36,486 nucleotides of DNA from Marivita sp. Lineage in GTDB: Bacteria; Pseudomonadota; Alphaproteobacteria; Rhodobacterales; Rhodobacteraceae. This document shows, piece by piece, positions 15,636 through 35,974 of the stretch. Numbering within the stretch: the first letter of the stretch is position 1; every line of letters begins with the position of its first letter. Made by a program: the position numbers and the translations under genes. The notes beneath the pieces are model-generated. The model searched no databases. It saw only the letters and a program-made list of their open reading frames with translations, and was not told where the DNA came from. The DNA lies in the NCBI RefSeq assembly GCF_017643905.1, contig NZ_JAEPMO010000022.1, positions 1-36,486 on the forward strand. The letters are read 5' to 3'.

Positions 15636-15637
15636 TT

Positions 15638-15700: not shown

Positions 15701-15725
15701 CAGCGCGCAAGCAGGAGTATGACCC

Positions 15726-18475: not shown

Positions 18476-18505
18476 TTGACACAAAATACTGACCGTTAGT
18501 AAGTT
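18476..18505 (+). promoter_or_regulatory. Promoter with embedded operator upstream of the malonyl-CoA operon
   Basis: TTGACA (18476-18481) and a possible -10 TAAGTT (18500-18505), 18 bp apart. Between them is the near-palindrome TACTGAC-C-GTTAGTA (18487-18501; one mismatch). The 28 bp from 18476 match 28914-28941 at 25 positions, including the -35 box, which makes a shared repressor site very likely. The local BetI-like protein (26955-27638) is the best candidate. Confidence 0.65.
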
Positions 18506-18567
18506 AATGGAACGGATCGACGGTATCGACGGCCATAGAGTTGGTTTTTCATGGATCATCGAGCCGC

Positions 18568-18581
18568 AGTGACAGGTCACT
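18568..18581. promoter_or_regulatory. AGTGAC-AG-GTCACT palindrome in the 5' leader
   Basis: A perfect 6-bp inverted repeat with a 2-bp centre, immediately before the AGGAGG of the small ORF. Too short a loop for an RNA hairpin, so a protein site is more likely. Confidence 0.35.
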
Positions 18582-18594
18582 CAGGAGGACGGCG

Positions 18595-18720
18595 ATGAAC
18601 GGAACAGCCAGGCAAGTCCGCAGCATCGGGTTGAACCTTCCTATGCGAAGCTGCGCGGCCGGGGCCATGTCAGACCAATGCCAGGGCTGCAAGCGCAGCC
18701 TCAGCAGCATTCCATCATGA
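18595..18720 (+). CDS. 41-residue cysteine-containing small ORF coupled to malonyl-CoA decarboxylase
   Basis: ATG 18595 follows a consensus AGGAGG (18583-18588) at 6 nt. The frame runs 41 codons and ends in TGA at 18718-18720, overlapping the decarboxylase ATG (18717) as ATGA. The second half holds Cys20, Cys29 and Cys32 (SDQCQGCKRSL), a CxxC pair. I recognise no family. The consensus ribosome site belongs to this ORF, and the decarboxylase has none of its own, so translation of the enzyme probably depends on it. It may be a leader peptide, a metal- or redox-sensing small protein, or only a coupling device. Confidence 0.6.
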   Translation: MNGTARQVRSIGLNLPMRSCAAGAMSDQCQGCKRSLSSIPS

Positions 18721-19979
18721 CGATGTTGGCAGATCTTTTGGCGAGCGTGTTCGACCGCCGCAAAGTCCGACCGATTTCCTTACGGCAGGGCAAGAAATCT
18801 CTTGCCGAACTTGCGCGCGAACTCCTGGTGGGGGCTGGGGAAGCCTCAGGGCTAGCCTCGGCTGCAGCGATCCTGTCGGGCTATGCGTGTCTTGACGATG
18901 CGGGCAAGCTCACTTTCTTCCGGATGCTAGCAGTCGAGATGAACATCTCGGCGGACAAGGTGCGTCAGGCGTTGAACGCCTATGAAGCTGCACCATCGAA
19001 GGTCACCTACCGGGACTTTGCTGCGGCCGCGGAACCGCCTCGACAAGAGTTGATCCGGCGACTGAACAGGGTTCCCGGTGCGACCGGAAGTCTTGTGCGG
19101 ATGCGGGCCGACCTCTTGCGTCTCGGCAAGGGCGAGCCAGACCTTGAGGCGCTGGATCTGGATTTCCGGCATCTTCTCTCTTCTTGGTTTAATCGTGGTT
19201 TTCTGGTTTTACGACCGATCAGCTGGGAAAGCCCTGCGCATGTTCTTGAAAAGATCATAGCCTACGAGGCGGTTCATGCGATCGACAGTTGGGATGACCT
19301 GCGGCGGCGACTGGAGCCGTCCGACCGCCGCTGCTTTGCCTTTTTCCATCCTGCAATGCCGGACGAGCCGCTGATTTTCGTCGAGGTTGCGCTGATGCAG
19401 GGCATTGCGCAGTCGATCCAGACCCTTCTGGCGGAAGGCCGAGATGTCAGGCTTGCAGAAGAGGCCGATACGGCTGTCTTCTATTCGATTTCGAACTGCC
19501 AGCCGGGCCTTGCGGGCATCTCGTTCGGCAACTCGCTGATCAAGCAAGTGGCGGCGGATCTGTCCCAGGAGCTTCCTGAGCTTCGGACGTTCGTGACCCT
19601 TTCCCCATTGCCGGGTTTCGCGAGATGGCTGACCGAGACCGGAATGGATGCCCGGGTAGCGGATGGCCCTCTGCTTTGCGCTTATGCCGCCCACTACCTT
19701 GTCCATTCGAAGGACCGTGATGGAATGCCGATCGACCCCGTGGCGCGGTTCCACCTCGGCAACGGGGCTATCGTGCATCAGGTCCATGCCGGTGCCGACA
19801 CGTCGGCGAAGGGCAAGGCACAGTCGGAAGGCCTGATGGTCAATTACCTCTATGACCTTGGCCGGGTGGCGCAGCACCACGAGCTTTTCGCCACGAAAGG
19901 CGAGATCGCCCAATCGCCGCAAATTCGGGCGCTATGTGCCGTGGCAGAAAAGGCTCTTCTGCCGGGGAAGAAAGCATGA
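18717..19979 (+). CDS. matA: Malonyl-CoA decarboxylase
   Basis: 420 residues. Typical MCD C-terminal catalytic domain: CFAFFHPAMPDEPLIFVEVAL, then DTAVFYSISNCQPGLAGISFGN, then FVTLSPLPGFARWL, and VARFHLGNGAIVHQVHAGAD with the catalytic histidine region. The N-terminal half is the helical MCD domain. It converts malonyl-CoA to acetyl-CoA and CO2. ATG 18717 is preferred to ATG 18678 because it overlaps the small ORF stop as ATGA. It ends in an ATGA overlap with malonyl-CoA synthetase, the matA-matB order known from Rhizobium, so malonate can be activated and turned into acetyl-CoA. Confidence 0.93.
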   Translation: MTMLADLLASVFDRRKVRPISLRQGKKSLAELARELLVGAGEASGLASAAAILSGYACLDDAGKLTFFRMLAVEMNISADKVRQALNAYEAAPSKVTYRDFAAAAEPPRQELIRRLNRVPGATGSLVRMRADLLRLGKGEPDLEALDLDFRHLLSSWFNRGFLVLRPISWESPAHVLEKIIAYEAVHAIDSWDDLRRRLEPSDRRCFAFFHPAMPDEPLIFVEVALMQGIAQSIQTLLAEGRDVRLAEEADTAVFYSISNCQPGLAGISFGNSLIKQVAADLSQELPELRTFVTLSPLPGFARWLTETGMDARVADGPLLCAYAAHYLVHSKDRDGMPIDPVARFHLGNGAIVHQVHAGADTSAKGKAQSEGLMVNYLYDLGRVAQHHELFATKGEIAQSPQIRALCAVAEKALLPGKKA

Positions 19980-21508
19980 CCAACCCGCTCTACGATCAGC
20001 TTTTCGGAAGGCATGTCGGCAAGGGCAATCCATTCCTGCGCCTGGCCGATGGCTCGGTCGTGACCTACGCGGCCTTTCTTGGCCGTGCCGCACAGATGGC
20101 GCATGTACTGATGCAAGGCGGTCTGCAGCCCGGCGACCGGCTTGCCGCCCAGGTGCAGAAATCACCCGATGCGCTGGCCCTCTATGCCGCCTGCGTACAG
20201 GCGGGCGTTGTGTTCCTGCCCCTGAACACCGCCTACACGACCGACGAACTCAGCTATTTCATCGATGACAGCGGCGCGCGGATGATTGTCTGCGATGCAA
20301 AAGTCGCAGGCGCCCTGACGCCCATCGCCACGCGGGCAGGATCAAGACTCGAGACGCTGAACGCGGACGGGTCTGGCACCTTGACGGACAGCGCGCGAGC
20401 GATGCCCGAAAGCGTCCAGACCGTAGCGCGCGCGACCGATGACCTGGCGGCGTGGCTTTATACCTCTGGGACGACCGGGCGCTCAAAAGGGGCCATGCTG
20501 AGCCAGGGGAACCTTTTGACGAATGCCGCGACACTCGCAAAGGAGTGGCGGTTCACAGCCGAAGATGTCCTGCTGCACGCCCTTCCGATCTTTCACACCC
20601 ACGGTCTGTTCGTGGCGACCAATGTCACGCTTGTGGCGGGCGCCTCGATGATCTTCCTGCCCCAGTTTAATGTCGACCAGCTTGTCGAGCTGATGCCGCA
20701 GTCAACCGTCCTGATGGGGGTGCCGACCTTCTACACGCGGCTGCTTGATCACCCACGTTTCGACCGCAAACTGGCGTCCGGCATGCGCCTGTTCGTGTCC
20801 GGCTCAGCCCCGCTGCTGGCCGATACACATGTCCAGTTCGAAGATCGCACCGGCCACCGCATCCTTGAACGCTATGGCATGACCGAAACCAACATGAACA
20901 CCGCGAACCCTTATGCGGGGAACCGCCGTGCGGGAACAGTCGGCCTGCCGTTGCCGGGGGTGGAGGTAAAGGTCACTGACCCCGACACGAGTGCTACCCT
21001 GCCCCGGGGCGCGGTTGGCCAGATCGAGGTGCGCGGGCCTAACGTCTTCAAGGGATACTGGCAGATGCCCGAAAAGACGGCCGCGGAACTGCGGGCCGAC
21101 GGGTTCTTCATTACCGGCGATCTGGGGAAGATCGACGAAGACGGTTATCTGCACATCCTTGGCCGCAACAAGGACCTGATCATTTCCGGCGGCTACAATA
21201 TCTACCCCAAGGAAATCGAACTGGTGCTGGATGCACAGCCCGGTGTGCTGGAAAGCGCGGTGATCGGCGTGCCGCACCGTGACCTGGGCGAGACCGCCAT
21301 CGGGGTGATCGTGGCCAAGCCCGGCGTCCAGCTCAACCTGGACCAGATCATGGCTGCGGTCGAGGTGACGCTCGCGCGGTTCAAGCATCCCAGACGGCTG
21401 GTCGTGGTGCCGGAACTGCCGCGCAACACGATGGCCAAGGTGCAGAAGAACATCCTTAGGGAACAATTCAAGGACGTTCCAGGCGATCTGACACGCCAGT
21501 CGGCCTAA
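19976..21508 (+). CDS. matB: Malonyl-CoA synthetase (acyl-CoA ligase family)
   Basis: 510 residues. ATP-binding motif YTSGTTGRSKGAM (162-174), ERYGMTETNMNT (299-309; the MatB-type A5 motif), GPNVFKGYWQMPEKT (354-368), FFITGDLGKIDEDGYLHILGR (378-397) and the catalytic Lys488 in NTMAKVQKN, the same position as the acetylated lysine of Rhodopseudomonas MatB. It makes malonyl-CoA from malonate, CoA and ATP; MatB enzymes also accept methylmalonate. The start is set by the ATGA overlap with matA. The matC carrier usual in mat operons is absent here; an ABC transporter follows. Confidence 0.95.
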   Translation: MTNPLYDQLFGRHVGKGNPFLRLADGSVVTYAAFLGRAAQMAHVLMQGGLQPGDRLAAQVQKSPDALALYAACVQAGVVFLPLNTAYTTDELSYFIDDSGARMIVCDAKVAGALTPIATRAGSRLETLNADGSGTLTDSARAMPESVQTVARATDDLAAWLYTSGTTGRSKGAMLSQGNLLTNAATLAKEWRFTAEDVLLHALPIFHTHGLFVATNVTLVAGASMIFLPQFNVDQLVELMPQSTVLMGVPTFYTRLLDHPRFDRKLASGMRLFVSGSAPLLADTHVQFEDRTGHRILERYGMTETNMNTANPYAGNRRAGTVGLPLPGVEVKVTDPDTSATLPRGAVGQIEVRGPNVFKGYWQMPEKTAAELRADGFFITGDLGKIDEDGYLHILGRNKDLIISGGYNIYPKEIELVLDAQPGVLESAVIGVPHRDLGETAIGVIVAKPGVQLNLDQIMAAVEVTLARFKHPRRLVVVPELPRNTMAKVQKNILREQFKDVPGDLTRQSA

Positions 21509-21606
21509 CGAAATCCGGAGGGTTCAGCGCGACCAGAAGCCGGAAAGAGAGGGTGACCTTCGAGGAGTGGGGCACCGCAACAGGAAAACCTAGGGAGGAG
21601 AGACTG

Positions 21607-23178
21607 ATGACCAACCATCTGATCGGCCAAGGCGGAATGACCCGCCGAGGTCTCTTGAAAAGCAGCATGGCGATGACGGCGGCAGGGTTGATGCTGCCAG
21701 CCGGCATGGCAATGGCACAGGCAGAACCGAAAAAGGGTGGGACCCTACGGATCGGCTTCAACTCGGGCAGCACGGTCGACAATTACGACCCCGGCGTCTG
21801 GGATACGAATTTCGTTCAGGTCTTTGCCCAAGCAAGGCACAACTATCTGACAGAAATCGCGGCCGACGGCTCGCTAGTCGGCGAAGTGGCAGAAAGCTGG
21901 GAAGCAAGTTCTGACGCCACGACCTGGACGCTGAAGATCCGCCAGGGGATCACCTTCCACAGCGGCGGAACCCTGACGGCTGACGACGTGATTGCATCGA
22001 TCAATTATCACCGTGGACCAGACAGCACGTCTGCCGCAAAGCCGATCGTCGATCCGATCGTCGAAATGAAGTCAGATGGGCCGAATACGGTCATCGTCAC
22101 ATTGAGCGGCGGGAATGCCGACTTCCCCTATCTCATGTCGGACTATCACCTGCCGATCATGCCCGCTAAAGACGGCAAGATCGATCCGACCTCGTCAGAC
22201 GGATGCGGCCCGTACAAGGTCGACAGCTTCGAACCCGGTATCAGTGCCTCGCTCAGCAAGCATCAAGGCTACTGGAAAACCGATCGTGGGCACTTCGACG
22301 GGCTCTTGCTTCTGGCCCTTCCTGATCCCGTGGCGCGGCAGAACGCACTGCTTACCGGTGAGGTCGACGTCATCAACCAGGTTGACCTGACGACGGTCTC
22401 GATGATGGCCCGCAACAGCGCGATCCGCATACTTTCGGTGACCGGCAACCAGCACTTCTGTTTCCCGATGGACACGCGGGCAGCGCCCTTCAATGACAAC
22501 AACGTCCGGCTTGCACTCAAGCATGCGCTGGACCGCCAGGAGATGGTCGACAAGATCCTGTACGGCTACGGCGCTGTCGGGAACGACAACCCGATCGGGC
22601 CGACACAGCAATACTATGCTGCCGATCTGCCGGTGAACAGCTATGATCCGGACAAGGCCAAATTCTATCTGGGACAAGCGGGACTGACGTCACTCGATGT
22701 CCCCCTTTGGGTGGCCGAGGCTGGCTTTACCGGCGCGACGGATTCCGGCACGCTCTATGCTGAACGCGCGAAAGCGGCCGGCATCAACATCACCGTCGAA
22801 CGCGCACCGAACGACGGCTATTGGAGCAACGTCTGGATGCAGAAGCCGTGGTGCGCCTCGTACTGGGGCGGCCGCGCGACCTGCGACTGGATGTTCTCGA
22901 CCGCCTATGCGGCAGGCGCACCCTGGAACGAAAGCTACTGGGACAACGAGCGGTTCAACACCTTGCTGCTGCAGGGGCGTTCAGAACTCGACGATGCCAA
23001 GCGGGGCGAGATCTATCACGAGATGCAGGCCATCGTGTCGAACGAGGGCGGCGTGGTGATCCCGATGTTCGCAAGCTTTGTCATGGGTGTCTCGAACGCG
23101 GTCGCGACACCTGATGTGGTCGGCGCAAACTGGGACCTGGACGGGTTCCGGGCGGTGGAGCGCTGGTGGTTCGCCTGA
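21607..23178 (+). CDS. ABC transporter substrate-binding protein, family 5 (peptide/opine type), Tat-exported
   Basis: 523 residues. The N-terminus has a twin-arginine motif (MTRRGLLKSS) followed by a hydrophobic stretch and AMA before QAEPKKGGTLRIGFN, so it is probably exported folded by Tat. SBP_bac_5 features: LVGEVAESWEASSDATTWTLKIRQGITFHSGGTLTADDV, and a C-terminal W-rich region. These receptors bind di/oligopeptides, opines, nickel or amino-acid conjugates. GGAGGAGA 7 nt before ATG 21607 is a very strong ribosome site. It is followed by a hairpin and the membrane and ATPase genes, making a complete importer. Cargo unknown; the context suggests a malonate-containing or methylated conjugate. 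Confidence 0.92.
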   Translation: MTNHLIGQGGMTRRGLLKSSMAMTAAGLMLPAGMAMAQAEPKKGGTLRIGFNSGSTVDNYDPGVWDTNFVQVFAQARHNYLTEIAADGSLVGEVAESWEASSDATTWTLKIRQGITFHSGGTLTADDVIASINYHRGPDSTSAAKPIVDPIVEMKSDGPNTVIVTLSGGNADFPYLMSDYHLPIMPAKDGKIDPTSSDGCGPYKVDSFEPGISASLSKHQGYWKTDRGHFDGLLLLALPDPVARQNALLTGEVDVINQVDLTTVSMMARNSAIRILSVTGNQHFCFPMDTRAAPFNDNNVRLALKHALDRQEMVDKILYGYGAVGNDNPIGPTQQYYAADLPVNSYDPDKAKFYLGQAGLTSLDVPLWVAEAGFTGATDSGTLYAERAKAAGINITVERAPNDGYWSNVWMQKPWCASYWGGRATCDWMFSTAYAAGAPWNESYWDNERFNTLLLQGRSELDDAKRGEIYHEMQAIVSNEGGVVIPMFASFVMGVSNAVATPDVVGANWDLDGFRAVERWWFA

Positions 23179-23199
23179 TCCACACCGTCAATTGAACAG

Positions 23200-23226
23200 G
23201 CTCCGGCGGGGATAGCTCGCCGGAGC
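23200..23226 (+). terminator. Hairpin after the ABC receptor gene
   Basis: GCTCCGGCG pairs perfectly with CGCCGGAGC around a 9-nt loop, followed by only GTTT. It lies 21 nt after the receptor stop and 54 nt before the first permease, the place where receptor-permease attenuation or 3'-end protection normally occurs. Confidence 0.6.
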
Positions 23227-23280
23227 GTTTCGGGCGTTGCGGCATCAAGACCGCAAGAGAAAAACAATCGGGGGGATGGG

Positions 23281-24234
23281 ATGCACGGCATTTGGACAAT
23301 GATCAGGCAGCGGCTGCTGCTGGGCATGTTAACCCTGTTCATCATTTCGGCTGTGATCTTCGGGGCCACCGAGCTTCTGCCGGGCGACCTCGCGCGTGAG
23401 CTGTTGGGTCAGTCAGCGACCGAAGAAACCCTTGCAGCACTTCGCGAGCAATTGGGCCTGAACGAGTCCGCTCCGGTCCGCTACTGGAACTGGCTGACAG
23501 GCGTGCTCCACGGCGATTTTGGCATGTCGATGGCAACCAACAAGCCGATCTCGGAACTGGTTGGCACACGGTTGGGCAATACGCTTTTTCTGGCCCTTTA
23601 TGCCGCTGCCTTGGCTGTGCCGATCTCGCTGACACTGGGCGTGTTGGCTGCGCTCTGGCGCAATTCGATCTTTGACCGGGCGTCGAACGCGCTGGCGTTG
23701 ACGGCGATTTCCTTTCCCGAGTTCTTCGTAGCCTACATCTTGATCCTTTGGCTGGCGCAGTCGGGGATTTTCCCATCGATGGTGCGCATGACCGAAGCAA
23801 CGACCACGCTCGATTTCCTTTACATGGCCTTCCTGCCCGCTCTCACGCTGACCCTTGTTGTCACCGCCCACATGATGCGGATGACACGAGCCGCGATCAT
23901 CAACCTGCTGGCCAGCCCCTACATCGAGATGGCGCGGCTGAAGGGCATGTCGCCGATGCGCGTGGTTCTACGACATGCGGTGCCGAACGCGCTTGCGCCC
24001 ATCATCAACGTGGTGGCGCTGAACCTTGCCTATCTCATTACCGGTGTCGTCGTTGTCGAGGTGGTCTTTGTCTATCCCGGCCTTGGCCAATTGATGATCG
24101 ACGCGGTGACCAATCGCGACATCCCGGTTGTGCAAGCGATCGCACTGATCTTTGCCTGCGCCTACGTCCTGCTCAATCTTCTTGCGGATGTGCTCTCCAC
24201 GATCACCAACCCGCGCCTGATGCACAGGAAATAG
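23281..24234 (+). CDS. ABC transporter permease, DppB/OppB family
   Basis: 317 residues. Six membrane segments and an N-terminal periplasmic loop typical of DppB (LLPGDLARELLGQSATEETLAALREQLGLNESAPVRYWNWL). The EAA loop that contacts the ATPase is EMARLKGMSPMRVVLRHAVPNAL. It forms the channel with the DppC-like subunit that follows 4 nt later. A GGGGGATGGG run just before the ATG serves as ribosome site. Confidence 0.92.
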   Translation: MHGIWTMIRQRLLLGMLTLFIISAVIFGATELLPGDLARELLGQSATEETLAALREQLGLNESAPVRYWNWLTGVLHGDFGMSMATNKPISELVGTRLGNTLFLALYAAALAVPISLTLGVLAALWRNSIFDRASNALALTAISFPEFFVAYILILWLAQSGIFPSMVRMTEATTTLDFLYMAFLPALTLTLVVTAHMMRMTRAAIINLLASPYIEMARLKGMSPMRVVLRHAVPNALAPIINVVALNLAYLITGVVVVEVVFVYPGLGQLMIDAVTNRDIPVVQAIALIFACAYVLLNLLADVLSTITNPRLMHRK

Positions 24235-24238
24235 GGAC

Positions 24239-25153
24239 ATGCCCATTCTATTTTCCATCGTCGTCGGAATTGCGCTGTTCTTCATGATCGGTTTTGTCGC
24301 TCGCGCCCTCCTGCAAGCGTTTGCCCCAGCGCATCTGAAGCCAACGTTCCGCGACACCCCGCTTACGGCCTGCTTCGGATTATCCGTTATTCTGCTCTAT
24401 GTTGTCGTCGCCATCTTTGCCCCAATGATCGCCCCCTTTGGTGAGGGTGAGGTTCTTGGTGCCCAGTTCTTGCCGTGGGCATCCCCCCACTATCTCGGCA
24501 CCGACAAGCTGGGTCGAGATATGTTGACCAGGCTGATCTATGGCGCGCGCAACACCGTGGGCATCGCTTTCGCCACCACTGCCCTTTCATTCTTTGTGGG
24601 GTCGTTTCTTGGAATATGGGCGGCGCTCGCCGGGGGCTGGCTTGACCAATGGTTGTCGCGCTTTGTTGACGCGCTGATGGCCATTCCTGCCCTGATCTTG
24701 TCTCTTCTCCTGCTCACAATTTTCGGGACATCGGTATTGACACTCATTCTTGTGATCGCCGCTGTCGATGCGACCCGCGTCTACCGGCTGGCGCGTTCGG
24801 TCGCCCAAGGTATCGTCGTGATGGACTATATCGAGGCCGCGCGTCTGCGCGGCGAAGGCATGTGGCGGCTGGTCCGGCGTGAAATCCTGCCCAACGCGGT
24901 GGCGCCCCTGGTGGCCGAGTTCGGCCTGCGCTTCTGTTTCGTGTTCCTGTCGATCTCGGCGCTGTCATTTCTCGGCCTTGGGATCAAGCCGCCCACTGCC
25001 GACTGGGGCAGCATGGTGCGCGAGAATGCAACGCTGATCACCTTTGGCGATATCACCCCCCTTCTGCCCGCAGGGGCGATCGCCCTTCTGACCGTGGCTG
25101 TGAACTTTGTCGTCGACTGGCAACTTCACCGCGCCAGCGGACTGAAAGAGTGA
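24239..25153 (+). CDS. ABC transporter permease, DppC/OppC family
   Basis: 304 residues with an N-terminal membrane anchor followed by the five-segment binding-protein-dependent transport domain. DppC features: YLGTDKLGRDMLTRLIYGARNTVGIA (about residues 85-110) and the EAA loop YIEAARLRGEGMWRLVRREILPNAVAPL. It is compactly placed between dppB-like and ATPase genes. It opens with two hydrophobic stretches before the usual start of the family domain, slightly longer than average. Confidence 0.91.
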   Translation: MPILFSIVVGIALFFMIGFVARALLQAFAPAHLKPTFRDTPLTACFGLSVILLYVVVAIFAPMIAPFGEGEVLGAQFLPWASPHYLGTDKLGRDMLTRLIYGARNTVGIAFATTALSFFVGSFLGIWAALAGGWLDQWLSRFVDALMAIPALILSLLLLTIFGTSVLTLILVIAAVDATRVYRLARSVAQGIVVMDYIEAARLRGEGMWRLVRREILPNAVAPLVAEFGLRFCFVFLSISALSFLGLGIKPPTADWGSMVRENATLITFGDITPLLPAGAIALLTVAVNFVVDWQLHRASGLKE

Positions 25154-25156
25154 ACC

Positions 25157-26770
25157 ATGGAAGAAGACCCGCTCCTCACCATTACGGATCTGCGGATCGA
25201 AGGCCGCTCAGGCGAGCTGTGGCACCCGATCGTCAAAGGCGTAAACCTGAGTTTGCGCCGCGGCGAGGTTCTTGGCCTGATCGGTGAATCTGGGGCGGGC
25301 AAGTCGACACTTGGCCTTGCCGCCATGGGCTTTGCCCGCGACGGCTGCCGTATAGCGGGCGGCTCCATCGATTTTGACGGCATCAACTTGCGCACCGCCC
25401 CCGAGGCACAGCGGCGAAGCCTGCGGGGCAAGCGCATCGCCTATGTCGCACAGTCGGCGGCGGCTAGTTTCAACCCCGCGCACAAGTTGATCGACCAATA
25501 TTGCGAATGCCCTGTCGTCCATGGCGTAATGCCACGGGAGCAGGCCGAAGCGGACGCGTTCGAGCTTTACCGCCGCATGCGCCTACCGAACCCCGAGGCG
25601 ATCGGCTTCCGATATCCACATCAGGTGTCAGGCGGGCAATTGCAGCGGGCGATGACGGCGATGGCGATGGCGTGTCGGCCCGACCTGATCATATTTGACG
25701 AACCGACGACCGCATTGGACGTCACCACCCAGATCGAGGTTCTCGCCGCGATCCGCGATATCGTCCGGCAGTTCGGTACTGCTGCCATCTACATCACGCA
25801 TGACCTTGCCGTGGTTGCCCAAATGGCCGATCGGATCAAGGTTTTGCTTCGTGGCCACGAGGTAGAGGAGGCCGATACCCGCTCCATGCTGGCGGCACCA
25901 CGCGAGGCGTATACGAAAAGCCTCTGGGCCGTGCGCAGCTTTGCGCGCGCCGAACGGCCACCAGCGACGGGAACGCCCGTTGTTTCGGTGCGCAATGTGA
26001 CGGCGGGTTATGGTGCGGTTGACGTGCTGAAGGATGTCAGCTTTGACATCCATCACCGCCGCACCGTGGCCGTCGTGGGCGAAAGCGGATCGGGCAAGTC
26101 GACGACGGCGCGGGTGATCACTGGCCTTCTGCCGCCGCGCAAAGGTGAGGTGCTGTTCAACGGCAAGGTGCTGCCCCCCAACTTCAAGGTCCGGAGCCGC
26201 GAGGAACTGCGCCAGTGTCAGATGATCTACCAGATGGCCGACACCGCGCTGAACCCCAAGCTGCGCCTGCGCGAGCTGATCGGGCGACCGGCCGAGATGT
26301 ATCTGGGGCTGAAGGGAAAGGCGCTGGACTCCCGCATCCGCGATCTTCTGGCGCTGATCGAACTGGAACCGGACACGTTCATCGACCGCCTGCCGTCCGA
26401 ACTTTCAGGCGGACAGAAGCAGCGCATCGGCATTGCCCGGGCACTGGCCGCCGAGCCGCAGCTGATCATCTGCGATGAAGTAACCAGCGCACTCGACCAG
26501 ATCGTGCAGGAGGGCATCCTGAAGCTGCTCGACCGCCTGCAGGCCGAGTTGAATTTGGCCTACATGTTCATCACCCATGACCTTGCTACGGTGAAATCCA
26601 TCGCCGACGAGGTCGTGGTGATGCAGCGCGGCGTCGTGGTCGAACGCGGCCCCAAGGCCGCGCTCTTTGCCGAGCCAAAAGAGGAATACACAAACCTTCT
26701 TCTCTCCTCCGTGCCCGAAATGGACCCGGACTGGTTGAACCGCCTGCTCGCCGCGCGCGCGGGCCAATGA
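25157..26770 (+). CDS. ABC transporter ATPase, fused DppD-DppF type (two nucleotide-binding domains)
   Basis: 537 residues with two complete ATPase domains. First: Walker A GESGAGKS (43-50), signature VSGGQLQRAM, Walker B LIIFDEPTTALD. Second: Walker A GESGSGKS (308-315), signature LSGGQKQRIGIARAL, and Walker B LIICDEVTSALD. Peptide importers usually use two separate proteins; the fused form is common in rhizobia and roseobacters. The second Walker B has Glu followed by Val instead of Pro. It powers import through the two permeases and starts 3 nt after the previous stop. Confidence 0.93.
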   Translation: MEEDPLLTITDLRIEGRSGELWHPIVKGVNLSLRRGEVLGLIGESGAGKSTLGLAAMGFARDGCRIAGGSIDFDGINLRTAPEAQRRSLRGKRIAYVAQSAAASFNPAHKLIDQYCECPVVHGVMPREQAEADAFELYRRMRLPNPEAIGFRYPHQVSGGQLQRAMTAMAMACRPDLIIFDEPTTALDVTTQIEVLAAIRDIVRQFGTAAIYITHDLAVVAQMADRIKVLLRGHEVEEADTRSMLAAPREAYTKSLWAVRSFARAERPPATGTPVVSVRNVTAGYGAVDVLKDVSFDIHHRRTVAVVGESGSGKSTTARVITGLLPPRKGEVLFNGKVLPPNFKVRSREELRQCQMIYQMADTALNPKLRLRELIGRPAEMYLGLKGKALDSRIRDLLALIELEPDTFIDRLPSELSGGQKQRIGIARALAAEPQLIICDEVTSALDQIVQEGILKLLDRLQAELNLAYMFITHDLATVKSIADEVVVMQRGVVVERGPKAALFAEPKEEYTNLLLSSVPEMDPDWLNRLLAARAGQ

Positions 26771-26772
26771 AC

Positions 26773-26789
26773 GCAAGCTTGATGCTTGC
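26773..26789 (+). terminator. Weak hairpin after the ABC ATPase gene
   Basis: GCAAGC-TTGAT-GCTTGC, a perfect 6-bp stem directly after the stop codon, but with no T-run. Possibly part of a 3' end; weak evidence. Confidence 0.3.
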
Positions 26790-26954
26790 AGTCATTCAGG
26801 CATCTGGCTGTCCCGCATAACAGGAAGGGCATCCGGGGTTCGCGCAGAGTCAGGTTCTTTTCTTTCAGTAAGTATTTGATTACTCTGGTTCAAGGTCGTT
26901 GTGTTGCTCGGGATTTCCGATCCCTGGACACGAACTTAGAAGGGGTGCCTCAAA

Positions 26955-27638
26955 TTGCGATCAAGGTCGATCCGCACGATCCGACGCGCCGAACTGTCCA
27001 TGGCGGCGTTCGAGGCTGTCGTCCTCTATGGGCTGCGCGGCACGACGCTTGAGAAGGTCGGTGAAATCGCGGGCGTATCCAAGGGCGTCGTGCTGCACCA
27101 TTTCAAGGACAAGGGCTCTTTGCTTGAGGCCGTGATCCGCCGCACCAATGGCATGCTCAGTACGTCTTTGGTCGAACTCTACCGGCACGCCGAGACACCC
27201 TATGAACGGCTTTGGGCCGTCATCATCGCGAATTTCCACGAGTCGATCTTTAATCAGGCCGTCTGTCAGGCATGGGTATCGCTGATGGCAGAGGTTCCCC
27301 ACAACCGTGAGAGCCAGCGCGTGCAGACCGCCAACTACGCCCGCGTGGCCAGCAATTTTGCCCATGAATTAAAGCACTTCGTTCCAAGGGAAGAAGCAAG
27401 AACCATTGCGCGCCACCTCAACTTGCTGATCGACGGCATCTGGGTGCGGGTTGGCTCTCGTGTCGAACCTCTCGACGGGGCGCAGTCGATCGGCGATCTT
27501 GAATACGAGTTGATGAAGTTCTTGCCCACGGACGAAAAGAGCCTCGCAAAACACAAAGCAGCGCGTGAAAAGATGGAGAACGTCGCGCGCATAGCGCTCG
27601 GGACGCGCGCTTTTCTTGAAAATTCCATCTCGCGCTGA
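26955..27638 (+). CDS. BetI-like TetR-family regulator (TTG start)
   Basis: 227 residues. N-terminal region (IRRAELSMAAFEAVVLYGLRGTTLEKVGEIAGVSKGVVLHHFKDKGSLLEAVIRR) is close to BetI, the choline-responsive repressor, in both helix-turn-helix and spacing. The C-terminal domain is BetI-like too (SVFNQ..CQAWVSL, RHLNLLIDGIWVR). TTG 26955 is used because the next ATG (26999) would remove part of the first helix; GAAGGGG lies about 9 nt upstream. It sits in the middle of the second island and is the best candidate to bind the shared operator found at 18487, 28616 and 28924. The effector could be choline-like or another methylated compound. Confidence 0.87.
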   Translation: MRSRSIRTIRRAELSMAAFEAVVLYGLRGTTLEKVGEIAGVSKGVVLHHFKDKGSLLEAVIRRTNGMLSTSLVELYRHAETPYERLWAVIIANFHESIFNQAVCQAWVSLMAEVPHNRESQRVQTANYARVASNFAHELKHFVPREEARTIARHLNLLIDGIWVRVGSRVEPLDGAQSIGDLEYELMKFLPTDEKSLAKHKAAREKMENVARIALGTRAFLENSISR

Positions 27639-27641
27639 CAG

Positions 27642-28550
27642 TCAGCCACAAGCCATGCCCCGCGTCAGATGGTCAGCAATCCGGGCGATGGATTGCCGCG
27701 CTTCGGGCAGGTCATCGTACCACTCAAAGACGTGCCAAAGCCCTTCCCAGACCTGCAGATCAACCGTCACCCCGCAGTCGCGCAGCCTTTGCGACATCTG
27801 CACGGCTTGGCTGAGCAACAGGTCGCGGGTTCCCGTGGTGATCAGGAAAGGCGGGAAGCTGCGGTCAAACGCGCCGCAGACCGGCGAGATCAGCGGCTGG
27901 TCCATCTTGTTTGCACCAGCATAGTAGCGCGCTGCCAGATCGGAATTGGCCCGCGTCAGGGTCGGGTCACGGCCGTCGTTGAAGGTAAGGCTGTCGCCTG
28001 TGTTTCTCAGATCGCACCACGGCGACAAAAGAGCCGCAGCGCCCGGCAGGCGCAAACCTTCGGCCTTGGCCTTGAGCATCCAGGCAAGCGACAGGTTGCC
28101 CCCGGCGGATTCCCCACAGACAGCAAAAGGCTTTCCGGCGATTTCGCGGTAAACGGCAAAACCATCGTCAAGGGCTGCCGGCCAGGGATGTTCCGGGGCC
28201 AGCCGATAATCGGGCACGATAACACGCGCGCCGGTCAAGGCCGAAAGTGGGGCAATGACCGGCAGGTCCTCCTCTGGGCTGCCTTCCACCATTCCGCCGC
28301 CGAAGGCGTAAAGGATGGGCCAGTTCACCGCCAAATTCCGTGGACGCACCACCAGACAGCGCACACCGCCATGGATTGCCTCATCCATTGTCACGGCATG
28401 GGCCTGGCAGATGCGCTGAGCCTCGGCCATTGCAATGGACTTCGCCTTTGCGCGCAAACCGGGAAGGTTCCCGGCTGATCTGTCGCGGGACCTGATCCCC
28501 TTGTCGAGGAAATTCAGAACCTCGTCGCTTAGTCCAAGTGGCGACTGCAT
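27642..28550 (-). CDS. Alpha/beta hydrolase of the hormone-sensitive lipase family (esterase), altered oxyanion motif
   Basis: 302 residues. Catalytic Ser148 in GESAGG, Asp243 in GTRDLLL and His273 in EGLWHVFEW. The strand ending in DYRLAPEHPWPAALDD is typical of the HSL family. The HGGG oxyanion motif is FGGG here (residues 83-86), with Phe in place of His; the glycines that form the hole are kept. It probably hydrolyses a carboxylic ester of the compound handled by the island. It converges with the BetI-like gene (3-nt gap) and its promoter region holds a palindrome related to the shared operator. Confidence 0.88.
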   Translation of the reverse strand: MQSPLGLSDEVLNFLDKGIRSRDRSAGNLPGLRAKAKSIAMAEAQRICQAHAVTMDEAIHGGVRCLVVRPRNLAVNWPILYAFGGGMVEGSPEEDLPVIAPLSALTGARVIVPDYRLAPEHPWPAALDDGFAVYREIAGKPFAVCGESAGGNLSLAWMLKAKAEGLRLPGAAALLSPWCDLRNTGDSLTFNDGRDPTLTRANSDLAARYYAGANKMDQPLISPVCGAFDRSFPPFLITTGTRDLLLSQAVQMSQRLRDCGVTVDLQVWEGLWHVFEWYDDLPEARQSIARIADHLTRGMACG

Positions 28551-28615
28551 CGCGGGAACCTTGTTCTGGCTGCTCTTTCAAGCGGAAGTATTCTTTCTAT
28601 CTGTGGTAAGAAAAA

Positions 28616-28628
28616 TGACCGATGGTCA
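28616..28628. promoter_or_regulatory. Operator-like palindrome upstream of the esterase gene
   Basis: TGACC-GAT-GGTCA, a perfect 5-bp inverted repeat 66 bp before the esterase start. It shares TGACC-N-N-T-N-GT-N-A with the sites at 18490 and 28928. On the minus strand TTGACC overlaps it as a possible -35 box. Confidence 0.5.
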
Positions 28629-28913
28629 ATAAATACTTGGGCCTGAACACTACAGATCCCTCCTGTGCCGAGACGGTCATCGTCAGTTAGGCCAGAGCCA
28701 ATTGCATCCGTGCCCGTGCGCAAGGCGCGCGACCGCTCACCTCCGGCTGAGCAATGGGCAAAGCATGCCATAGGCTCGTCTCTTGGCGTTACATGAGGGG
28801 GGAAAGAGGCTGTCCCGATCATCATGACGATAGGTGAGGAGCACGAACCCAGATTTGGCAATCAGACCCCGGTCAGGGGCAAGACTCCTACGCTTCAGGC
28901 CATAATTTAATCA
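28629..28913. other. Gene-free divergent control region
   Basis: About 285 bp between the esterase operator and the rightward promoter. No convincing gene is present. A small CCCC-GGTCA-GGGG hairpin is at 28867-28879 and an AT-rich ATAATTTAAT at 28902-28911 precedes the promoter. Confidence 0.5.
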
Positions 28914-28943
28914 TTGACACAAATTACTGACCATTGGTAAGTT
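28914..28943 (+). promoter_or_regulatory. Promoter with embedded operator upstream of the DUF2182-DUF1326-ligase operon
   Basis: TTGACA (28914-28919) and possible -10 TAAGTT (28938-28943), 18 bp apart. The spacer holds TTAC-N9-GTAA (28924-28940) with TACTGACC inside. The first 28 bp match 18476-18503 at 25 positions. A bound repressor would block both promoters. Confidence 0.65.
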
Positions 28944-28991
28944 TTTAGGCGTGATGAAGCAAAAGCCGGTTCCCTGTTCAGGCCGAACGCC

Positions 28992-29225
28992 ATGAGCTTA
29001 CCACCCGACAAAAGCGTCCCTTGGCGTAAACCAACAACGGCCTTGAAACCCATGAAACCAGCGGAGCAAGACGTGTTTTCCTTCCAACCCAACACGTGTA
29101 TCAGACCGTCCCCATTCTTCGAGGCTGTCCTGATTGATGCCCCAGTTCCTGTGGGCACTGAGGTCACGCTGGCCCGTGCGAATGGGCTGACAACCACCAA
29201 ACTCGTTGAGATTGCGTTCCTGTGA
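28992..29225 (+). pseudogene. Probable internally deleted GcvT-family remnant (77 codons)
   Basis: The frame reads NTCIRPSPFFEA, like the extreme N-terminus of DmdA/GcvT-like demethylases (RRSPFFDA type), then directly APVPVGTEVTLARANGLTTTKLVEIAFL. The latter resembles the C-terminal barrel of the GcvT gene at 34775 (APDDWIGRTMRFSLPNG... IVDLPFF). The central folate-binding domain would be missing. Its TGA overlaps the ATG of the next gene (TGATG), so it may still act in coupling. No good ribosome site is seen; ATG 29052 is an alternative start. It could instead be a real small protein of unknown function. Confidence 0.4.
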
Positions 29226-30020
29226 TGCAGGGCCAGCCCCCATTGCTGTCGACCAATCCGCCTGCAGCCTTTGGCCGCCGGCTGTTCTGGCTGGGCCTTT
29301 ATGCTGCCATCCTGATGGGATGGGCGGGCCTGATGCAGATGACGGCCTCGCCCATACCGGGCCTTACGGCGTCCGAATACTGGGCCGCCTTGTGCATCTC
29401 GGCTGAAAATGCCGATCCTTTGGCGCTGATCGCGATGTGGGGTTTGATGTCGGCGGCAATGATGCTGCCGACCTTTGTGCCCGCCGTGCGGGTCTTTGGC
29501 GAGTTGGGGGCAGCCCAGGCTAGCAATGGGGCCAGCATGGTCGCGCTTGTCGGGATATGGCGCGGTATGGCTCGTGTTTTCCATCCTTGCGGCAGGCTTG
29601 CAACTGGGGCTTGCCAAGGCGGGCGCGATGACCGGGGCTGGGCAGAGCTTGTCGCCCTGGGTGTCGGTTGGGCTTCTGGCGGCAGCCGGGGCCTATCAGT
29701 TCAGCACCGCAAAAGAAGCCTGCCTATCAAAGTGCCGCCACCCTCTGATGTTCTTCGTGGAACATTGGGCGCCGGGGTTGGAGCCCGCCTTCGCCATGGG
29801 CGCGCGACTTGGGGTCTGGTGCGTGGGCTGCTGCTGGCTTTTGATGCTGCTTGGCCTCATCGGCGGCGCGATGAACCTGATGTGGATGGGGGCCGCCACC
29901 CTGTTCATGGTTTTCGAAAAGCTGCCCGAAATCGGGCGTTATCTGACCCGACCGCTTGGCGTGGCGCTGATGATCGGCGCTGCGGTGCAAGTCGTCTCTG
30001 TTTTCTCATGGGGAGCATGA
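29225..30020 (+). pseudogene. DUF2182 predicted metal-binding membrane protein, single-nucleotide frameshift
   Basis: The start is read in one frame (RRLFWLGLYAAILMGWAGLMQMT... WGLMSAAMMLPTFVPAVRVF) and, from about 29552, in another (GYGAVWLVFSILAAGLQL... FSTAKEACLSKCRHPLMFF... MGARLGVWCVGCCWLLMLLGLIGGAMNLMWM). Removing one G from the GGG at 29552-29554 joins them, giving about 264 residues; the span is 3n+1. The conserved CLxxCRxP and CVGCCW motifs of DUF2182 are intact. It normally pairs with DUF1326, which overlaps it here by ATGA. It is either a recent mutation or a sequencing error in a short homopolymer. Confidence 0.8.
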
Positions 30021-30646
30021 AGATGTCCGCGACCATGCCAGAGTGGCGTCTGAAAGGTGAACTGATCCTGAACTGCAACTGCACGGTATTCTGCCCCTGC
30101 GTGGTTAGTCTTGGCAAGCATCCCCCGACCGAAGGATACTGTCAGGCCTGGATGGGCGTGCGCATCGACGAGGGCCATTTCGACGGCGAGAACCTTGGTG
30201 GCCTCAACATCGGCATGATGCTGGATATTCCGGGCAACATGGGGCGCGGCAACTGGAAAGCGGCCGCCTACATCGACGAAAGGGCGTCCGAAAAGGCGTA
30301 TGGCGGCCTGGTCGATGTCTTCTCGGGCAAGGTGCGGGGCACCACAGGCCTGTTCTCGATGCTGGTATCCGAATTTCTGGGCGCACAGCGCGCTCCAGTC
30401 GTCTTTGAGACGGAGGGCCGCAAGCGCCGCCTGATGGTCGGAAAATTCATCCAAGGCGAGGTCGAGCCGATCGGCGGCCCTGACCCGGACAAAGAGGTGA
30501 TCGTCACCAATACCGGATATTGGATGGGCCCCGACATCACAATTGCCATGGCCAACAGGGGCAAGGTTCGCGCCCATGGCCGGGTCTGGGATTTCGACGG
30601 CCGCTCCGCCGAGATCTGCCAGATCGACTGGCACGGGCCGAACTGA
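30017..30646 (+). CDS. DUF1326-family cysteine-motif protein
   Basis: 209 residues. The N-terminus carries CNCTVFCPC (C-x-C-x4-C-x-C, residues about 17-25), the defining motif of DUF1326, followed by CQAWMGVRIDEGHFDGENLGGLN. The C-terminal half resembles the family end (GRVWDFDGRSAEICQIDWHG). Four closely spaced cysteines suggest metal binding or thiol chemistry, but no function is established that I know of. ATG 30017 overlaps the DUF2182 stop as ATGA, and GGGAG is just upstream. The DUF2182-DUF1326 pair recurs in many bacteria. Confidence 0.85.
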   Translation: MKMSATMPEWRLKGELILNCNCTVFCPCVVSLGKHPPTEGYCQAWMGVRIDEGHFDGENLGGLNIGMMLDIPGNMGRGNWKAAAYIDERASEKAYGGLVDVFSGKVRGTTGLFSMLVSEFLGAQRAPVVFETEGRKRRLMVGKFIQGEVEPIGGPDPDKEVIVTNTGYWMGPDITIAMANRGKVRAHGRVWDFDGRSAEICQIDWHGPN

Positions 30647-30648
30647 CC

Positions 30649-32253
30649 ATGCGCGCGCATTTCGATGCCCCGCAATGGGGCGAGGCAAACCATGTGGCCC
30701 TGTCACCGCTGTCCTTTCTGCAAAGGGCCGCAATTGTCTATGGGAACCTTCCAGCAAGCACGTTCGGTGGTGTGACACGCACATGGGCCGAAGTGGCGCT
30801 GCGCGTTCGGTCTGTCGCGGCAGGGCTGGCCGCGCGCGGGATCGGGCTGGGTGATACAGTGTCTGTCCTGTCGCCGAACTGTCCGGAACTGTTCGAGTTG
30901 CACTACGCCGTGCCCTTGGCGGGGGCGGTTCTGAACACGATCAACACACGGCTGGAGCCAGAAACCGTCGCCTATATCCTTGACCATTCAGACTGCCGTC
31001 TGGTGCTGGCAGACACCACACTTGCGCCACTGTTGCGGGCGGCTTTCGCGCTGATGGGACGGGCGCTGCCGATCATCGACATTGGCCATGGTGCGGGGTT
31101 TGGCGAGACCGGCTATGACGCGCTCGTGGCGGCAATTCCGATGGAGTGGGCGCTGCCTGCGGATGAAGGACAGGCGATCACGCTGAACTATACGTCGGGA
31201 ACGTCGGGCAGGCCCAAGGGCGTGATCTATCACCACCGCGGGGCCTACCTGATGGCATTGGGCACGGTCGCCGGTTGGTCCTTGCCGCAGCGACCGACCT
31301 ATCTGTCGGTGGTACCGATGTTCCACTGCAACGGCTGGAACCACCCCTGGGCCATGGCCATTGTTGGCGGGCACATGATCTTTGCCGCCGACATGGCGCC
31401 GGAGACCTTGTTGCAGGCCATGAAAGATCATGGCGTAACGCATCTGGGCGCGGCCCCGGTCATATTGCAGATGCTGTGTGAAAGCCCCACCGCCGTGCCG
31501 TTCTCGCCAAGGGTCAAGGTCATGACCGCCGGCGCGCCACCTCCGCCTTCCGTGCTGGAAAAGGCGGCGGCAATTGGGCTGGAGGTGATGCAGGTCTATG
31601 GGCTGACCGAAACCTACGGTCATATCTCGCAATGCCTGTGGCAGGACGATTGGTCAGACCTTGCGCCCGCCGAACAGGCCGCAAAGCAGGCGATGCAGGG
31701 CGTGGCCTTTCCGATGGTCGAAGGCATCCGCGTGGTCGACCGCGACACCGGCCAAAACGTGCGTCCCGATGGTCTGACGCAGGGCGAAATCGCCATTCGC
31801 GGCAATACCGTGATGAAGGGCTATTACAAGGACCCTACCGCCACCGAAGCTGCCTTCCGTGATGGCTGGTTCTGGTCGGGCGACGCTGCCGTCGTCCATC
31901 CAGACGGCTACATCCAGATCCGTGACCGGCTGAAGGACGTGATCATTTCAGGCGGCGAAAATGTTTCGTCGGTCGAGGTTGAGGCCGTCCTGTACCGCCA
32001 TCCGGCGATCAAGGCGGCCGCTGTCGTAGCCCGGCCTCATGAACGCTGGGGTGAGGCACCTTGCGCTTTTGTCGAACTGCGCGAGGGCGCGAAGACGACC
32101 GAGGCAGAGGTGATCGCCTTCTGCCGCAGCCACCTCGCGGGGTTCAAGACACCCAAATCTGTGGTGTTCCAGGAGCTTCCGAAAACCGCCACCGGAAAGA
32201 TCCAGAAATTCATTCTGCGCGATACGGCACGCGCGCTTGGGTCTTTGGTATGA
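30649..32253 (+). CDS. AMP-forming acyl-CoA ligase
   Basis: 534 residues. ATP-binding motif YTSGTSGRPKGV (181-192), YGLTETYGH, GEIAIRGNTVMKGYYKDPTAT, DGWFWSGDAAV, and the C-terminal catalytic lysine in TATGKIQKF. The MFHCNGWNHPW region is typical of the medium-chain/AAE and DmdB-like branch. It activates a carboxylic acid to its CoA thioester. Because it neighbours GcvT- and BisC-type genes, a DMSP-derived or other sulfur-containing acid is possible (inference). ATG 30649 follows the DUF1326 stop by 2 nt; its own TGA overlaps the small ORF at 32250. Confidence 0.92.
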   Translation: MRAHFDAPQWGEANHVALSPLSFLQRAAIVYGNLPASTFGGVTRTWAEVALRVRSVAAGLAARGIGLGDTVSVLSPNCPELFELHYAVPLAGAVLNTINTRLEPETVAYILDHSDCRLVLADTTLAPLLRAAFALMGRALPIIDIGHGAGFGETGYDALVAAIPMEWALPADEGQAITLNYTSGTSGRPKGVIYHHRGAYLMALGTVAGWSLPQRPTYLSVVPMFHCNGWNHPWAMAIVGGHMIFAADMAPETLLQAMKDHGVTHLGAAPVILQMLCESPTAVPFSPRVKVMTAGAPPPPSVLEKAAAIGLEVMQVYGLTETYGHISQCLWQDDWSDLAPAEQAAKQAMQGVAFPMVEGIRVVDRDTGQNVRPDGLTQGEIAIRGNTVMKGYYKDPTATEAAFRDGWFWSGDAAVVHPDGYIQIRDRLKDVIISGGENVSSVEVEAVLYRHPAIKAAAVVARPHERWGEAPCAFVELREGAKTTEAEVIAFCRSHLAGFKTPKSVVFQELPKTATGKIQKFILRDTARALGSLV

Positions 32254-32426
32254 TGGCCGCACTCTTCATGGAAAGGGGTTTGGTGCTGACCGATCCGGTC
32301 AAGCTGACCGACGGAGTCGTCGGCCAATGCCGGATCGCCAACCTTGCCATGGCAGTCATCGCCAACCGCATGACCAACGGATGCAGCCGGAAGCGTCAGG
32401 CAGCTTTTGGATTGGGGCTCAGATGA
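32250..32426 (+). CDS. 58-residue small ORF tiled between acyl-CoA ligase and sulfoxide reductase
   Basis: ATG 32250 overlaps the ligase stop as ATGA, and its own TGA (32424-32426) overlaps the next ATG (32423) in the same way, so it fills the gap exactly. The sequence (MERGLVLTDPVKLTDGVVGQ, then CRIANLAMAVIANRMTNGCSRKRQ) has two cysteines, an alanine-rich amphipathic stretch and a basic end. No family recognised. The double overlap argues that it is translated; it may be a small subunit, a chaperone-like partner of the molybdoenzyme, or a shortened relic. Confidence 0.55.
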   Translation: MMAALFMERGLVLTDPVKLTDGVVGQCRIANLAMAVIANRMTNGCSRKRQAAFGLGLR

Positions 32427-34774: not shown

Positions 34775-35974
34775 TTGGCCAGCCTACAAGAAGCCTCCGA
34801 CCTGCAGAATGTGGTCACGATCAGTGCCCGCCGTTTCGAGGAATCGCCATTCATTGCGCGGACGGCAAATCCCGCGATGATCCGCGGCGTCTATGCCGAC
34901 CGCTTCTTTCCCATCTATCTGGGAGAGGATGTGATCGAGAAATATTGGGCCCTCCGCCAGCGGGCACTGATCTTCGACGTTCCTGAAAAGCCTGTCGAGA
35001 TCGCCGGCCCGGACGCGGTGCCGTTTCTTGAGCGGGTTTTGTCGCGCCGGGTATCAACGATGCGGGAAGGTCGCGGCTATTATGCCATCGCTTGCACGCC
35101 GCAAGGTGGTGTCTTCATGGATGGCGTCGTGTTCCGTCTTGGGCAAGACCGGTTCTGGTATGTTCAAGCCGACGGCCCCTTCGAGACTTGGCTGATCGCC
35201 CATAGCGGCGGGTTCGATGTGTCGATCTCTGACCCGAAGTCGAGGGTCCTGCAGATTCAGGGTCCGGCCTCAATCGACATCATGAAGGCGGCATCCGGCG
35301 GTGCCATCGATGATACGATGGGCTATTTCCGGTCGGGCTTTTTCGATCTGGGCGGGCAGACACTTTATGTCTCGCGCACGGGTTTCACCAACGAACTCGG
35401 GTTCGAGATCTACACGGATGGCCAAAGGACGGATCACCTAGCCCTTTGGGACCACCTTATGTCATGTGGGGCACCTCACGGTCTAGAGTTTTCGTCAGCC
35501 CGAGCGATGACCATCCGCCGGATCGAGGGTGGAATTCTTGGGAACCTGTCCGACATCGATACATCCATGACCCCGTTCGAGGCCGGGCTCGGGCCGTTCG
35601 TTGACATGGAAAAGGGCGATTTCATCGGACGGAGCGCGCTGGTCGACCGCGACCGTCGCCCCGTCTTGTTCGGGATCACCTGCCAGACCGCAGTTCCGGC
35701 TGCAGGGAGCGTAATCCTTGATGCGGATCGTACCGTCGGACGCATTACGGCAGGGGTTCCTTCACCTACGCTCGGCTGTGGTGTGGGCTACGCCCGCTTT
35801 TTCGCACCCGACGACTGGATCGGACGCACTATGCGTTTCTCTTTGCCAAATGGCGAAACGCATGAAGGCCAGATTGTCGATCTGCCTTTCTTCGACAAGG
35901 AAAAGCACATCGTCCGGGGCATTGACCGTCAGATCCCCGCGCGCCGGGCCTCCATGCCATTTGACGCAAGATAG
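34775..35974 (+). CDS. GcvT-family aminomethyltransferase/demethylase (DmdA-like)
   Basis: 399 residues. GcvT fold: N-terminal RRFEESPFIART, VEIAGPDAVPFLERVLSRRVSTMREGRGYYAIACTPQGGVFMDGVVFRL (folate-binding domain), GFTNELGFEIYTD, and a C-terminal barrel with GYARFFAPDDWIGRTMRFS and VDLPFFD. Such stand-alone proteins transfer a methyl or one-carbon unit from a substrate (DMSP, dimethylglycine, sarcosine or aromatic methyl ethers) to tetrahydrofolate. It differs from canonical DMSP demethylase enough that I do not use dmdA. The TTG start has a good AAGGA at 7 nt. It follows the BisC gene by 24 nt in the same operon. Confidence 0.88.
   Translation: MASLQEASDLQNVVTISARRFEESPFIARTANPAMIRGVYADRFFPIYLGEDVIEKYWALRQRALIFDVPEKPVEIAGPDAVPFLERVLSRRVSTMREGRGYYAIACTPQGGVFMDGVVFRLGQDRFWYVQADGPFETWLIAHSGGFDVSISDPKSRVLQIQGPASIDIMKAASGGAIDDTMGYFRSGFFDLGGQTLYVSRTGFTNELGFEIYTDGQRTDHLALWDHLMSCGAPHGLEFSSARAMTIRRIEGGILGNLSDIDTSMTPFEAGLGPFVDMEKGDFIGRSALVDRDRRPVLFGITCQTAVPAAGSVILDADRTVGRITAGVPSPTLGCGVGYARFFAPDDWIGRTMRFSLPNGETHEGQIVDLPFFDKEKHIVRGIDRQIPARRASMPFDAR

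Follow-up and report, generated by a model that had tools for sequence, protein, structure and literature searches.

The window analysed here, a 36,486-nucleotide stretch of a Marivita sp. genome (contig NZ_JAEPMO010000022.1), carries two rightward operons, as read from gene order and spacing, with a gene for a BetI-like TetR regulator between them (Table 1). The left operon joins genes for malonyl-CoA decarboxylase (MCD) and malonyl-CoA synthetase (MatB) to those of an ABC importer, and the right operon contains a molybdoenzyme of the dimethyl sulfoxide (DMSO)/trimethylamine N-oxide (TMAO) reductase family and a GcvT-family demethylase-like protein; a leftward esterase gene stands between the regulator and the right operon. 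A local dyad recurs in several promoters around the regulator; three of its sites in the window are clear and a fourth is borderline. We read these boxes as operators of the BetI-like TetR protein, which would be the putative repressor of a methylated-compound and malonate regulon, and place the probability of this reading at roughly 0.85.

Table 1. Features of the window; operator scores are from a 21-bp position weight matrix (PWM).
Feature	Position	Strand	Evidence
TTGACA, -35 of the mat-operon promoter	18476..18481	+	sequence; in 6/7 aligned orthologous MCD promoters, not L032
Operator 1, ATACTGACCGTTAGTAAGTTA	18486..18506	.	PWM 24.5; GGTAAGTT or AGTAAGTT kept in 7/7 aligned promoters
MCD	18678..19979	+	PF05292 317.8 bits, PF17408 91.2 bits
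MatB	19934..21508	+	NF005702 803.7 bits, cut-off 558
Family-5 substrate-binding protein (SBP5)	21553..23178	+	PF00496
ABC permease	23281..24234	+	PF00528
ABC permease	24239..25153	+	PF00528
Fused double ABC ATPase	25157..26770	+	PF00005, two stretches
Tentative weak operator before tetR, TTCTTTTCTTTCAGTAAGTAT	26855..26875	.	PWM 13.2; 12.0 and 11.0 with half-trained matrices
BetI-like TetR regulator, proposed binder of the sites	26955..27638	+	PF00440, PF13977; TTG start, uncertain
Hormone-sensitive-lipase-type esterase	27642..28550	-	PF07859 162.9 bits
Operator 3, AAAATGACCGATGGTCAATAA, upstream of the esterase	28612..28632	.	PWM 17.6
TTGACA, -35 of the reductase/demethylase-operon promoter	28914..28919	+	sequence
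Operator 2, TTACTGACCATTGGTAAGTTT	28924..28944	.	PWM 28.8; L030 counterpart at 11828, same TTGACACAAA ahead of the dyad
GcvT-family gene remnant downstream of operator 2, 57 codons, both termini kept around a large internal deletion	29052..29225	+	
DUF1326 protein, weak PpoB2-like stretch	29222..30646	+	PF07040 173.8 bits; PF09948 28.5 bits, just under cut-off 28.7
Acyl-CoA synthetase, true start probably further in	30520..32253	+	NF006020 743.3 bits, cut-off 677
DMSO/TMAO-reductase-family molybdoenzyme	32237..34750	+	TIGR00509 982.6 bits, cut-off 1017.6
GcvT-family demethylase-like protein	34775..35974	+	PF01571, PF08669
Iron-containing alcohol dehydrogenase (Fe-ADH), cut by the window end	35986..36486	+	open frame; matches L033 protein, Fe-ADH by Pfam

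A preliminary description of this DNA had singled out two similar 28-bp segments with the BetI-like gene between them, and both elements are where it put them: the 28-mers at 18476-18503 and 28914-28941 are identical at 25 of 28 positions, and the regulator gene occupies 26955-27638. In an all-against-all comparison of the direct-strand 28-mers of the window this pair came first (the runner-up reached 24), and the best pair in 12 Markov-shuffled windows did not exceed 24/28. The perfect palindrome TGACC-GAT-GGTCA said to precede the esterase lies at 28616-28628 without a mismatch. Throughout the 4.44-Mb genome, TTGACA-N6-ACTGACC has two exact matches and ACTGACC-N3-RGTAAG also has two, in each case the boxes at 18476 and 28914. 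Near matches to the latter pattern (at most two mismatches) are not in excess genome-wide (48+47 places versus 46+59 for the reversed control), nor are those of a second such count (31 versus 28), so the motif appears to be local. Occurrence at many unrelated loci, which the preliminary description had named as counting against its proposal, is thus not what the genome presents: 18 of 28 outside near matches were scored with the matrix described below, and their top score of 9.1 compares with 17.6-28.8 for the three clear window sites, while 20 outside stretches have an open frame of 101-233 codons spanning their middle. A genome-wide regulon is therefore rejected. Homologues elsewhere in the genome of the OpuAC-type binding protein (C90) and of GMC enzymes (three places), both among the targets assigned in related loci, have no site above 3.9 in the stretches scanned and are not taken as members.

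The shared element is described by a symmetric 21-bp matrix (consensus AAACTTACCAATGGTAAGTTT) trained on 51 distant loci whose TetR proteins are 45-72% identical to that of the window, the window and its close relatives being excluded. In the non-coding DNA of these loci AAACT-N11-AGTTT is the top 5-mer dyad, present in 18/51 against 0.2 expected, and the highest count for any dyad in five shuffles was 6. The top matrix scores in two sets of 60 shuffled windows were 11.2 and 12.6. The proposed operator is refined to a 21-bp dyad overlapping the promoter, not the whole 28-mer. Its claimed position between -35 and -10 elements holds on the upstream side, with TTGACA before the box in both rightward promoters, but the -10 is not clear-cut; the candidate TAAGTT, at 18 bp spacing, matches 3/6 consensus positions by eye. 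Sites near the esterase also occur in two relatives (L024, 20.7; L029, 13.2). The fourth site (26855-26875), additional to the three originally claimed, is borderline by score yet conserved, as CTTTTCTTTC(A/G)GTAAGT is kept in 7/8 aligned tetR upstream regions with drifting flanks (L029 differs), and tetR may also be under the control of its own product.

Matches to the TetR protein at E 1e-30 or better are found in 14 of 295 genomes of the family, and in nine, the window's own included, they reach at least 45% identity, a line set after inspection of the data. A species collection yielded 59 loci with a TetR orthologue, the proteins being 45-91% identical to the window's; the records, many of them metagenome bins, carry unchecked labels of Rhodobacteraceae, SAR116, Gammaproteobacteria and a few others, and the species represented include Marivita cryptomonadis and Roseovarius aestuarii. 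The preliminary description had suggested looking for the motif upstream of orthologous clusters, and a site scoring at least 15, wherever it lies within a locus (maximum length 20.7 kb), is present in 59/59 loci, with 138 sites in total; the 59 are not independent, since several come from near-identical genomes and L030 shares an identical site and flanks with L011, a locus from the search of the family genomes. TTGACA falls within the 25-bp flank of 58/138 sites, compared with 40/4000 random positions. The matrix is partly circular for its 51 training loci, and the non-circular results are those for the window, eight close relatives and a two-way cross-validation. Trained on L057-L082 and tested on L031-L056 without L032, it found a site of at least 15 in 25/25 loci (reversed 2, shuffles 0-1), and the reciprocal training gave 26/26 of L057-L082 (reversed 1, shuffles 0-2); the eight close relatives gave 8/8 (reversed 1, shuffles 0-1). 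At a score of 18 the counts are 24/25, 24/26 and 8/8, with reversed values of 0 and 1 for the first two sets. Because the same box fronts similar genes in related bacteria, the two boxes have the look of genuine binding sites for the regulator encoded between them; what the computation directly shows is the motif, how well it is conserved, which genes it precedes and that it goes with this TetR subfamily. It is highly improbable that the two 28-mers are alike by chance, or that one arose as a recent copy of a promoter segment inside the locus, with no regulator in common. The likeness does extend past the dyad into TTGACACAAA, but 25/28 was not reached in any of the 12 shuffles, the dyad is kept far beyond any recent copy, in loci whose TetR is 45-91% identical, and the cross-validated conservation already contradicts both copy and chance.

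The genes behind the sites in the orthologous loci form a recurrent set. Relatives' genes were chosen greedily as open reading frames and labelled by BLAST, so that distances are approximate, and each site was credited to whichever divergent or downstream gene lay closest, one site possibly counting for two divergent genes and tandem sites twice; on this basis 61 assignments fall to GMC genes, 47 to tetR, 38 to OpuAC, 34 to EamA, 13 to the enolase family, 10 to GcvT and 6 to MCD. A few further sites front esterase, SBP5, DMSO-reductase-type or Fe-ADH promoters, and a few lie inside predicted frames. The preliminary linkage of 18.6-26.8 kb and 27.6-36.5 kb into one system is borne out by L030, where the two-operon layout is repeated in the order site, MCD, MatB, importer, tetR, esterase, site, OpuAC-ABC-permease, DMSO reductase, GcvT and Fe-ADH, and where both promoters have TTGACACAAA in front of the dyad. 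In L033 the reductase module, GMC, SBP5, esterase and MCD surround one orthologue. The Marivita contig has two TetR orthologues, one of 81% with the mat module and another of 65% with the reductase module farther down (L032, L034). In a distant branch (L073, L075-L078, L081, L082; TetR 45-51% identical) a GMC gene lies next to the regulator gene in divergent orientation, and the one GMC protein scanned there, from L075, scores as betA (864.6 bits, cut-off 732.1). For the relatives' OpuAC-type binding protein the best match is 4xz6 (146.7 bits versus 43.6 for the next), the TMAO-binding TmoX. An enolase-superfamily dehydratase-like gene shares the operator, for example at L028:11967-13227 and L041:11595-12843, suggesting a hydroxy-acid step in the pathway.

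Binding and repression, like the inducer and pathway considered further below, are predictions from sequence. When inducer is absent, TetR dimers would sit on the dyad AAACTTACC-N3-GGTAAGTTT (consensus), which overlaps the promoter just behind the -35. Transcription of the mat/ABC operon (18.6-26.8 kb), of the reductase/demethylase operon (29-36.5 kb) and of the esterase gene would thereby be blocked, and that of tetR perhaps weakly so. The repressor would be released by a small molecule, probably a methylated compound resembling choline or one of its breakdown products, and this release would switch on, as one set, import, oxidation, demethylation and carbon disposal via malonate and malonyl-CoA. 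Among neighbouring sites less than 60 bp apart, 23/30 pairs are spaced by 19 bp, which suggests two repressor dimers side by side per promoter. Such 19-bp-spaced operators lie between EamA or enolase and GMC genes (L033, L036, L041 and others), with TTGTCA at the second dyad. The many promoters with two overlapping sites also recall the two-box divergon of BetI2 of Ruegeria pomeroyi (PMC12442346) and could mean that the same protein is mainly an activator or a two-way switch instead of a simple repressor. We consider this unlikely, as the box begins right behind the -35 in both window promoters, where a bound dimer should block RNA polymerase and so transcription, and TetR-family members are mostly repressors (PMC4424350).

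Several observations weigh against the protein at 26955 being the repressor that binds these boxes. The site in front of tetR (26855) is borderline, with 2/60 shuffled windows scoring higher with each half-trained matrix, the protein scores 159 bits against TIGR03384, the BetI equivalog model, under its cut-off of 201.3, and TetR proteins can activate too. Across the 295 genomes the strict 17-bp pattern ACTKACC-N3-GGTMAGT is hardly commoner than its reversed control (13 occurrences spread over 11 genomes, compared with 9 over 9 genomes); it is present in only 3/9 TetR-positive genomes and also in 8 genomes without an orthologue, 7 of which hold the symmetric ACTGACC/GGTCAGT form at matrix scores of 8.3-12.2, and a further symmetric-form place in G024 scores 13.6, above the window's tetR site. 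Finally, genome G070, which lacks an orthologue of this TetR at E 1e-30, has two boxes (20.9 and 20.2) before an unrelated TetR gene, so a box does not by itself tell which protein binds it.

These last two boxes are near-perfect, and together with a second TetR-type gene in the window at 15030-15635 they lend some weight to the idea that the sites are real operators of a different TetR-family protein, encoded there or elsewhere in the genome. This is nonetheless quite unlikely, as the sites accompany orthologues of the 26955 protein in 59/59 loci, with 47 assignments to that tetR's own promoter, and are lacking before MCD where the regulator is missing. MCD is present in 108/295 family genomes (110 places), and among the 28 best-scoring TetR-negative places of these 110, taken with about 1.5 kb on each side or less at contig ends, a site is lacking in 28/28 (best score 7.1); the MCD loci of the two TetR-positive genomes examined score 24.5 (window) and 24.9 (G024). 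A window-type GcvT protein (E 1e-100) is likewise found in 6/9 TetR-positive genomes, the window's own included, versus 5/286 others.

Related half-sites were seen in other settings. At L161:3854-3897 two ACTTACC-N3-GGTAAGT boxes, 23 bp apart, precede an unrelated TetR gene in a family genome that lacks an orthologue of the window's TetR, giving the same half-site with another regulator. A perfect palindrome of the ACTGACC-CGT/ACG-GGTCAGT type is common to L162, L167, L168 and L169 (genomes G055, G127, G183 and G024), and occurs with one mismatch in contig C246 of the window's genome; it probably belongs to another regulator or is a coding coincidence.

The name BetI-like fits the protein's domain family, but neither the operator of BetI nor a bet gene neighbourhood goes with it. 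The protein at 26955 combines TetR_N with the BetI-type C-terminal domain PF13977, both above gathering score (35.5 and 67.0 bits, cut-offs 24 and 27), and passes NF001978 (133.2 bits, cut-off 118); GMC neighbours are also frequent beside the relatives' regulators. In contrast, the TIGR03384 cut-off is not reached, and the BetI box published in PMC12442346, ATTGACG*CGTCAAT, is absent from the sites. At up to three mismatches it occurs in the window only at 12992 and 17859, with 1.74 occurrences expected by chance. No betA, betB or betT was found among the 20 window proteins scanned (9999-35974), the genes left of 9999 being outside the scan, and true BetI regulation is rejected on these two grounds of box and gene content.

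The nearest published lead is BetI2 of Ruegeria pomeroyi (SPO1086), set beside the 26955 protein by operator description, not by protein sequence. According to PMC12442346, BetI2 does not use the BetI box but two overlapping palindromes in a divergon, and their shared flank AAACTTGAAC starts with the same AAACTT, whereas the genes it controls are betTA. This flank was not found in 12 TetR loci (L012-L023).

RutR, the pyrimidine regulator, has the operator TTGACCANNTGGTCAA, which resembles the esterase palindrome of the window, and RutR is among the weak sequence matches of the TetR protein. The half-site spacing, however, is off by one base from that consensus, and the match is confined to the N-terminal part (34.5 bits versus a cut-off of 368). 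Marine TMAO and dimethylsulfoniopropionate (DMSP) systems offer a further comparison: the relatives' regulon has a 4xz6-like OpuAC-type binding protein and a DMSO/TMAO-reductase-family enzyme, and GcvT-type proteins also resemble the C-terminus of TMAO demethylase. The regulon differs from these systems in that its gene set is joined to malonate genes and its GcvT protein is far under the DmdA cut-off; as the DmdA DMSP demethylase, the protein at 34775-35974 is ruled out by the model (NF009133, 164.7 bits versus 410).

The BetI-type C-terminal domain, the betA-scoring GMC neighbour in one branch and the binding protein closest to 4xz6 together make a small methylated onium compound the probable inducer. 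Judged by its enzymes, the pathway would comprise import, redox change and demethylation, with malonate disposal in the window's branch. The substrate would probably be methylated and resemble an osmolyte, a class of compound common in sea water. More tentatively, and at somewhat worse than even odds, the operator is the mark of a catabolic regulon so far undescribed, in loci with Rhodobacteraceae, SAR116 and Gammaproteobacteria labels. Its genes would take up a methylated onium compound, N-oxide or S-oxide, in the window's branch perhaps as a malonate ester, which would account for esterase, MatB and MCD, and would reduce, oxidise and demethylate it under a choline-like inducer and a new branch of BetI-like proteins. 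No account of this regulon turned up in the literature searched, of which only part was accessible and which left most subscription papers outside its scope; a local TetR regulon is a known kind of system, and the attached pathway may be undescribed. The operator is of value because it points independently to genes that act jointly: one dyad unites malonate genes with those for a DMSO-reductase-type enzyme, for GcvT-type demethylase-like proteins, for a choline-dehydrogenase-like enzyme and for two kinds of ABC importer, a set that occurs in marine and other bacteria. The regulator in turn offers a direct route to the substrate, through the ligand that makes it leave the operator.

Individual genes of the two operons bear on this picture. 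The remnant behind operator 2 matches the GcvT protein of L026 by BLASTP at both ends (residues 8-29, 82% over 22, E 2e-7; residues 27-57, 52% over 31, E 0.001), and this longer homologue is positioned behind operators in L026. The match of the remnant's ends to the termini of that protein suggests that the right operon has lost most of its first gene. The molybdoenzyme at 32237-34750 has 1e18 as its top PDB match (718 bits), with SYGW and YS aligned, which we take to be active-site residues of the DMSO/TMAO-reductase family; its true start is probably near residue 63, and no signal peptide was seen by eye. A second MCD, 65% identical, is encoded elsewhere in the genome (G000:C8:2741-3988), so the window's copy may be pathway-specific.

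To the left of the regulon, the second TetR-type gene at 15030-15635 is divergent from a short-chain dehydrogenase gene, the pair covering 15030-16604, and the matrix finds no site above 9 there. The segments 12553-12921 and 13510-14385 contain 31-bp perfect inverted repeats 307 bp apart and related direct repeats, with an IS5-type transposase gene nearby. A 19-bp string within the 31-bp repeats has close variants at positions 59-134 of other contigs, namely C17, C38, C64, C66, C116 and C167.

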